A stretch of 50,956 nt of DNA from Nitrospinaceae bacterium (GTDB lineage: Bacteria > Nitrospinota > Nitrospinia > Nitrospinales > VA-1), in NCBI GenBank assembly GCA_029261475.1, contig JAJDBG010000024.1, positions 1-50,956 on the forward strand, written 5' to 3'. The notes under the pieces were generated by a model. That model had not been told where the DNA came from and did not search any database. It worked only from the letters and a program-made list of their open reading frames with translations. Positions 19,215-21,490 of this stretch are shown piece by piece. A program made the position numbers and the translations under genes. Every line of letters begins with the position of its first letter. Within the stretch, counting starts at the first letter, position 1.

Positions 19215-19768
19215 ATCAATCCCAAAAGCGACGCTCAATGTGGACAGGAAATACTCCTGAAATATCTCTATTCAACTCTGCAATTCATTCTATAATCAAT
19301 ACGAAACCACTTATTTCAAAAGAGTTTTTCAAAATTAAAAACTAAATGCACCTTGGGAGGGAGGAAATCATTGTAATAGTTTCCAAACCTTATATTGTCA
19401 GAAACTTACCAATCGAGGTGAGTGTTTTGCAATTCTCCAACTACCATCCCGACATTATATTGGGGAAGTTAACTTAAGACAAGAAGCAAAAAGAACCTCG
19501 TATCACAATTAGAGAACCTTATTCATTTAGTCAGCTATAGATTAACTTTAATGTTGCCAAACACAATTTCAATACGTTATACTGTTTAACTCATTCCATA
19601 AATCATTTTTTATCAATGGCGTATGGAAATATTAATGTTGATGAAATGGTAATGATTTATTATTTGAGTTGAATCGCCTCTTGGGTTGATCCATAACCCT
19701 ATTTTTTGAATATTCCCTCCTTTACTGGCTCAATAAAATACGCACATTTTTAGAAATGAAAGCGTTAC

Positions 19769-19851
19769 GGGCCAATGCAGACAAAGTCTGCTGGAAAAAG
19801 AAGGATTCCCCTGTCGTATAAGGGCAGTCATTCTCTCTACAAGGTCGGCCT
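19769..19851 (+). ncRNA. Candidate structured RNA element, unit A (83 nt)
   Basis: Contains perfect hairpin GCAGAC-AAA-GTCTGC; ends close with GGGCC/GGCCT; ungapped alignment to unit B. Confidence 0.5.
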
Positions 19852-19859
19852 ATTCATCA

Positions 19860-19875
19860 CCTCCATTTATGGAGG
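19860..19875 (+). repeat. Perfect hairpin between RNA units A and B
   Basis: CCTCCA-TTTA-TGGAGG. Confidence 0.7.
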
Positions 19876-19878
19876 GGC

Positions 19879-19961
19879 AGGCCCACACAGGCAATGTCTG
19901 TGGGAAATAGAGAAAATTTCCAGCAACTTTAAGAACAATATCTCTTAGATAATGCTGGCCT
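19879..19961 (+). ncRNA. Candidate structured RNA element, unit B (83 nt)
   Basis: Stems AGGCC/GGCCT, CACAGGC/GTCTGTG, GGAAAT/ATTTCC, AGCA/TGCT, TAAGA/TCTTA; same length as unit A. Confidence 0.5.
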
Positions 19962-20095
19962 ATTCACACCTATTTTTTTAAGCCGGTGAACCAGATAAAA
20001 AGATTATTTTGCAAGGCTCTCTTTGTGATTTAGAACAAAGAACCTTCTCTCCATTTTTTCGCTTATTCTTTTAAAATTATATTATTAAGGAAATT

Positions 20096-21490
20096 ATGCT
20101 TACAGAATCACCTAGTATTGCCCCTGTTATTCCTATTCCCACAGTTGCGCCTTCTGCAACTTGGGAAAGTCTCGAACTCATTGAACCTCTTTTGCGTGCA
20201 GTGAAGAATGAAAAGTATGCCAGCCCCACGCCCATTCAGTCGCAAGCTATCCCCAAGATTTTAAAGGGCCGCGACTTATTGGCTTCCGCTCAAACGGGAA
20301 CCGGGAAAACAGCTGCTTTTGCCTTGCCGATTTTGCAAATCCTCGCAAACAATCCGGTTCCGCATCGCAAGAAAAGCCCACGGGCTCTTATTCTGACACC
20401 CACGCGTGAACTCGCTGTACAAATCAGCGATAGTTTTCGTGTTTATGGACGTAACCTGAAACTCAATCACACCACCATTTTTGGAGGTGCGAGTCCTGTT
20501 TTGCAAATTCGATCTTTATCTAGAGGAACAGATATTTTGGTCGCAACACCAGGGCGTTTGCTCGATCTTTTCGAGCAAGGTCATATCTCTATGGACCGCG
20601 TTGAAATGTTTGTACTGGACGAAGCCGATCAAATGCTCGACAGAGGATTTCTTCCCGACATCAAAAAAATCTACTCGACCATTCCGAATCGCCCTCAAGG
20701 TTTGCTGTTTTCAGCTACCCTGCCGAAGGAAATTCTGGAACTCACGCAGAAATTTTTGAAAGATCCACTTAAAGTTGCCGTTTCACCACCTTCCAGCACG
20801 GTAGAGAATATCGATCAACGTATCTTATATGTTGACCGCGAAAACAAAAGTGCTCTCTTACATTCTCTTCTGGAAGACGAGACCATGCACCGCGTACTGG
20901 TATTTGCACGGACCAAGCATGGTGCGAACAACTTAGCCAAACAGTTGACGAAAAGTCGAATTTTCACCGAAGCTATTCACGGTAATAAATCACAAGCGGC
21001 CAGAATGGCGGCTTTGAAAAAGTTTAAATCTGGAAAAGTTCGCGTATTGGTTGCCACCGACGTCGCCTCACGAGGCCTTGACGTTGACAGCATCTCTCAC
21101 GTCATTAACTTTGAGTTGCCAAAAGAACCTGAAAGCTACGTGCACAGGATCGGTCGAACCGCCCGTGCAGGAGCCAAAGGATCGGCTATCTCCTTTTGTG
21201 ACGCAGGCGAGCGTCCTTACCTGAAGAGGATCGAGCGCACCATCAATCGTTCCGTTCCAGTGGACTCAGACCATCCTTTCCACTCTGTTTCGGTGGCAAA
21301 CAAACGAGTCTCTGGTGATGGTGGTTCCTCCAAACGGGACAACTACCGATCCAAAGGTGGACCGTCATCTCGCTTTGCAAAACCTAAAGGCAGACGACCT
21401 GCTCAAGGGCGAGGCTATTCTGCGGGAGGCTCTAAGCCAGGAGCTGGACCCGGAGCACAAAGACGCCGAGCTTCACGACCAGCACGTTAA
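20096..21490 (+). CDS. DEAD-box RNA helicase (RhlE/CsdA-like) with basic Gly-rich tail
   Basis: SAQTGTGKTAAFALP, LILTPTRELAVQI, VLDEADQML, FSATLP, RVLVATDVASRGLDV, YVHRIGRTARAG. Confidence 0.95.
   Translation: MLTESPSIAPVIPIPTVAPSATWESLELIEPLLRAVKNEKYASPTPIQSQAIPKILKGRDLLASAQTGTGKTAAFALPILQILANNPVPHRKKSPRALILTPTRELAVQISDSFRVYGRNLKLNHTTIFGGASPVLQIRSLSRGTDILVATPGRLLDLFEQGHISMDRVEMFVLDEADQMLDRGFLPDIKKIYSTIPNRPQGLLFSATLPKEILELTQKFLKDPLKVAVSPPSSTVENIDQRILYVDRENKSALLHSLLEDETMHRVLVFARTKHGANNLAKQLTKSRIFTEAIHGNKSQAARMAALKKFKSGKVRVLVATDVASRGLDVDSISHVINFELPKEPESYVHRIGRTARAGAKGSAISFCDAGERPYLKRIERTINRSVPVDSDHPFHSVSVANKRVSGDGGSSKRDNYRSKGGPSSRFAKPKGRRPAQGRGYSAGGSKPGAGPGAQRRRASRPAR

Follow-up and report, generated by a model that had tools for sequence, protein, structure and literature searches.

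Two structured units, A and B, which lie in tandem in the ~500-nt leader of a RhlE-type DEAD-box RNA helicase gene, are probably old, diverged copies of a genus-specific REP/MITE-like repeat that have been retained there for their hairpins. That the units are copies of a repeat follows from the similarity of their cores to the family, from their ranks in a search with a matrix built without them, and from the dispersed copies present in both genomes that carry the arrangement. Retention for the hairpins is suggested by the position of the units, which is shared by two species, by pairing that is better kept than expected by chance, and by covariation of the first hairpin (HP1) across copies. 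A palindromic repeat family is hereby described in Nitrospinota, and two of its copies have apparently been turned into part of a conserved 5' leader. Units A and B would accordingly illustrate, on a small scale, the reuse of genomic repeats within the leader of a gene; they would not be a new riboswitch.

Layout of the helicase leader

The window is the whole stretch of 50,956 nucleotides that was analyzed, contig C24 of a Nitrospinota genome of 2.9 Mb (G000). Units A and B share a divergent intergenic region with a promoter-like site, which precedes them, and are followed by the helicase gene, the best match of which is in the Nitrospinae MAG PCWG01000025. The features of the region are as follows.

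19554..19583, + strand: promoter-like site TTGCCA-N18-TATACT, the likely start of the helicase leader (10/12 consensus matches; conserved in the relative)
19592..19762, + strand: 5' portion of the leader, present in a single copy, with identity of up to 95% between the two species; it contains tiny ORFs and, at 19683-19709, a terminator-like hairpin
19769..19851, + strand: unit A, with the P1 helix (19769-19773 with 19847-19851) around the repeat core
19777..19801, + strand: repeat core of unit A, hairpin GCAGAC-AAA-GTCTGC followed by TGGAAAAAGA (3 mismatches to the family pattern; 23.6 bits with the held-out matrix)
19860..19875, + strand: separator hairpin CCTCCATTTATGGAGG (CCTCCA-TTTA-TGGAGG), from the sequence and comparison with tandem copies elsewhere
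19879..19961, + strand: unit B, with the P1 helix (19879-19883 with 19957-19961) around the repeat core
19887..19911, + strand: repeat core of unit B, hairpin ACAGGC-AAT-GTCTGT followed by GGGAAATAGA (3 mismatches to the family pattern; 24.0 bits, the top site of the window)
19967..19988, + strand: terminal hairpin after unit B, CACC...GGTG, whose loop contains the T7 run; the relative has a stronger form, CACCCG...CGGGTG
20096..21490, + strand: RhlE-type DEAD-box RNA helicase gene, 464 aa

The units have the sizes and spacing first reported from the sequence in an earlier note: each is 83 nt long, they are 110 nt apart, and they align without gaps. The ends are conserved and the middle is divergent, as that note described, with 44 of 83 positions identical (23 of the first 32, 16 of 46 in the middle, and all 5 at the end). 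The separator hairpin and the T7 run after unit B (19973-19979) were likewise found in place. The likeness of A to B is by itself barely above chance, since the 45 matches at offset 110 compare with a mean best of 40.3 and a maximum of 44 in 30 shuffled regions. Relative to shuffles, unit A folds with a z-score of -2.8, unit B with -3.7, and the 261-nt region with -4.2 (0 of 200 shuffles equally good). Helices P1 and P2, originally drawn by hand, are kept in both units and both genomes, with 100% of these cells paired and three two-sided pair changes. The hand-drawn helices P3 to P5 proved less secure. The minimum-energy fold of unit A has one long hairpin in their place and the register of P3 is shifted, so these three should not be called homologous helices of A and B.

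Promoter consensus matches in the leader region are not more common than in shuffles. Two overlapping tiny ORFs, encoding MEILMLMKW and MIYYLS, each before a stop codon, are present at 19623-19672, where conservation of the leader is highest; the relative has MVYYLS in place of the second. The terminator-like hairpin at 19683-19709 is situated 3' of these ORFs, making an attenuator arrangement possible, and is weak (-4.8 kcal/mol). The fold of the 5' leader (19588-19740) was given no support by pair retention. We also considered a thermosensor; the ribosome site is predicted to be mostly paired throughout 4-37 C, and slightly freer without A and B, and this small predicted change with temperature or with deletion of the units does not indicate one.

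A dispersed repeat family in two genomes

When the four units from the two genomes were combined in a covariance model, it matched G000 14 times and its congener G001 15 times at E<=5; in the other 75 Nitrospinota genomes the matches numbered 0 to 4 per genome. Common to the extra matches is a repeat core, consisting of HP1 (GCAGGC-nAn-GCCTGC) followed by (T/G)GGAAATAGA. The part that A and B best share, hairpin P2 plus GGAAATAGA, is this same dispersed-repeat signature. Copies of the core pattern number 22 in G000, 18 in G001, and 0 in a third congener (G002); beyond the genus there are 7 in total, in 5 of 74 other Nitrospinota genomes. The reversed core pattern, used as a control, had no match in G000 or G001. 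In the main subfamily the core is followed by a body of 40-60 nt and a second GC-rich hairpin, CCCGCTCCGGCGGG; the full repeat unit is ~90-110 nt long with two hairpins. The 93-nt consensus of this subfamily is represented by 19 copies in G000 and 22 in G001, by one weak match in G002, and by none in four other genomes. These copy counts were taken from searches of genome collections. Searches of plasmid and phage collections returned no match.

Fifteen dispersed copies start between -20 and +22 nt from a same-strand stop codon. Tandem copies exist elsewhere, with spacings of 110, 89, 80, and 37 nt, the first of which is the period of A and B, and the separator hairpin may correspond in position to the second hairpin that dispersed copies carry. 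When the window was scanned with a matrix of 41 copies from which A and B had been held out, B (24.0 bits) and A (23.6 bits) ranked first and second; the next site scored 15.2 and the highest score in 40 random windows was 16.9. This test is not fully independent, as the copies used for training had been found from A and B. Neither unit reached E<=0.01 with the main-subfamily consensus, indicating that the clear likeness is confined to HP1 and the ~12 nt after it, and the enclosing P1 helix is not seen in other copies. Across 44 copies, HP1 has two-sided changes in four of its six pairs, a covariation score reached by 0 of 500 shuffles. Such a mark is identical for the requirement of a single-stranded DNA hairpin and for an RNA hairpin.

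Of the readings offered in the earlier note, that of a mobile structured repeat is supported, as the core of A and B belongs to a dispersed family limited to the genus. The copies are largely scattered in the manner of a transposon-type repeat, which is the distribution that the note had set against its own proposal of selection on a leader RNA. Candidates for tandem structured RNAs from a single genome can be dispersed repeats, and a search for copies within the genome should precede a riboswitch claim.

The retention of A and B is not unique, since certain dispersed copies at orthologous sites are conserved about as well (~80% identity). The six pairs of orthologous repeat sites that were compared or sought were mosaics, occupied in both genomes, or not alignable, and no clean empty site or defined element ends were found among them. 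Two inverted copies of the element are present upstream of a second DEAD-box gene in G001 (G001:C2, L103:1350-1950). A tie between the repeat and helicases through this locus was considered and set aside, as the site compared in G000 showed no copy. A similar repeat, GCAGGCAAGGCCTGCGGCAAATAGG..., is present in G042 and G046 (L109, L110, L116, and L119), which represent another family of the order, so the repeat may be part of a set with a wider distribution in Nitrospinota.

Conservation and pairing in the second species

A DNA search of 60 relatives returned only the congener G001. In this genome A, the separator, B, and the terminal hairpin precede the orthologous helicase gene in the same arrangement, with 83% identity. 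The core stem of unit A is GCAGAC/GUCUGC in G000 and GCAGGU/ACCUGC in G001, where the loop is 3 nt longer, and the P3 stem of unit B changes from GGAAAU/AUUUCC to GAAAAU/AUUUUC. Random redistribution of the observed substitutions between the two species gave an expectation of 5.1 broken pairs for unit A, of which 1 was observed (P=0.004), and 8.2 for unit B, of which 5 were observed (P=0.049). This is moderate evidence that hairpin structure in A and B has been kept beyond chance. The earlier suggestion of selection on RNA structure is moderately supported to this extent; the pair retention is indistinguishable from that expected of a constraint on single-stranded DNA hairpins. The conservation peak of the leader is in the single-copy stretch 19624-19723 (~95%) and not in the units. 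Farther upstream in the intergenic region (~19240-19540), the two genomes align poorly.

Possible role in the helicase leader

Two tandem repeat elements would have been acquired before the split of the two species. In a leader downstream of the likely promoter, and kept for their hairpins, A and B may now constitute a structured leader block through which transcription presumably passes. Their most likely function would be to set how stable the helicase message is, or how well it is translated, as a structure sensitive to a helicase or an RNase. A regulatory effect of the units on helicase expression is suggested by their position and by the conserved promoter-like site. It is conceivable, and in our view unlikely, that the leader captured the repeat in tandem as a substrate-like sensor, with the helicase or a partner nuclease acting on hairpins in its own message. 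If true, this would be repeat-derived autoregulation, in the position that another conserved leader takes in other genera of Nitrospinota. Among the titles and abstracts listed in a literature search on the leaders of helicase genes, there was no direct precedent.

Alternative explanations

It is a real, if somewhat doubtful, possibility that A and B are functionless copies that were inserted in the leader and have persisted by descent, their pairing being kept because copies of any age are palindromes, or because the hairpin mattered for mobility alone. Membership in the family is consistent with this explanation, as is a degree of conservation in A and B that does not exceed that of the remaining leader. 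The retention of certain dispersed copies to about the same degree (~80% identity) at other orthologous sites also speaks for it. The neutral explanation does not sit well with the 83% identity of A and B next to upstream intergenic sequence that aligns poorly, nor with substitutions that have avoided breaking pairs since the split (P=0.004 for A and 0.049 for B), a point qualified by the divergence of the two units, which is too great for them to look recently mobile. Chance as the source of the A-B likeness and the helices can be practically dismissed. The identity between the units is, taken alone, at the edge of chance, but syntenic conservation, family membership, and pair retention refute this explanation.

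The earlier note also offered a tandem riboswitch-like leader and an autoregulatory helicase target, and these options were not supported. A regulatory RNA specific to the helicase, whether riboswitch-like or an autoregulatory target, to which the repeat likeness is secondary or from which the repeats were derived, now appears improbable. It would account for tandem multi-helix units within a conserved leader, and conserved leaders precede the helicase in other genera too; the copy upstream of the second helicase gene in G001 would also fit, but was not seen in G000. Against it, the region 19240-20100 has no Rfam match even at E<=5, and Rfam 15 at gathering cut-offs matched only a tRNA in the whole window. 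The A/B model found no unit in 28 other ortholog leaders, its sole matches being A and B of the window, and the family has ~20 or more copies per genome, many of them at gene 3' ends. More improbable still is that A and B, or the stretch 19590-19709 that ends in the terminator-like hairpin, are independently transcribed small RNAs. In favor of such RNAs are a promoter-like site, a single-copy stretch of strong conservation, and a hairpin with T-rich sequence after it, all of which are present in the relative as well. Against them, the terminator-like hairpin is weak, and a consensus scan found no promoter-like site between it and A/B.

Comparison with known repeat systems

The Nitrospinota repeat resembles REP/BIME elements (PMC3733652) in being a short palindrome in tens of extragenic copies, often downstream of genes, that occur as singletons and clusters and are patchily distributed across related genomes. 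It differs from the GTAG and CGTC superfamilies of these elements in lacking the tag and in its unit of ~90-110 nt with two hairpins, and A and B of the window differ in occupying a 5' leader. Neither GTAG nor CGTC occurs within 8 nt on either side of HP1 in any of 47 copies; their reverse complements are found near HP1 in two copies each, on the 5' side only.

Both repeat-bearing genomes have a RAYT-type Y1 transposase gene with a DnaA-like C-terminal domain, orthologous and in conserved gene order (G000:C93:36493-36819, L152; G001:C32:154977-155306, L153), and the congener without the repeat, G002, has no Y1 transposase match. This distribution is reminiscent of REPtrons (PMC8266576, PMC6006769), in which, however, the TnpAREP/RAYT gene is flanked by REPs. 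The gene described here, with its DnaA-like domain, is not flanked by the repeat, the nearest copy being ~0.8 kb past the gene end and beyond the next gene. RAYT subclass 2.1, with the DnaA-like domain, has been reported to lack REP-like sequences nearby (PMC6006769). Because of this subclass assignment, the lack of flanking copies, and the lack of a GTAG/CGTC tag, this gene is at most a candidate for the mobilizer.

Dispersed short palindromic units and tandem arrays are also characteristic of MITEs and other non-autonomous IS derivatives; at the orthologous sites compared, the Nitrospinota repeat showed neither a clean empty site nor defined ends. Tandem riboswitches (for example, glycine) similarly have two similar multi-helix units in a 5' leader; A and B differ from them in having no family match and a genomic distribution like that of a repeat. 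No paper in the library searched mentions Nitrospinota together with repetitive extragenic palindromes.

A different leader motif in other Nitrospinota

The motif CCGTCTAGAGAATnAnnGGTGT ... GGTTGAG ... TTCTCCCCCGTTTTCTCA is present once per genome in 25 other Nitrospinota genomes from five genera (L157-L181; for example, L158:1483-1632, + strand). It had no Rfam match at E<=1 in the leaders tested, RNAalifold predicts almost no nested structure for it, and no link was found between it and A/B. The motif, which we call leader-2, apparently constitutes a conserved leader different from A/B before the RhlE-type helicase, and it merits separate study. In the 17 ortholog leaders that were read out, CCGTCTAGAGAATnAnnGGTGT is upstream of this same helicase, mostly directly 3' of a TATAAT-like site.
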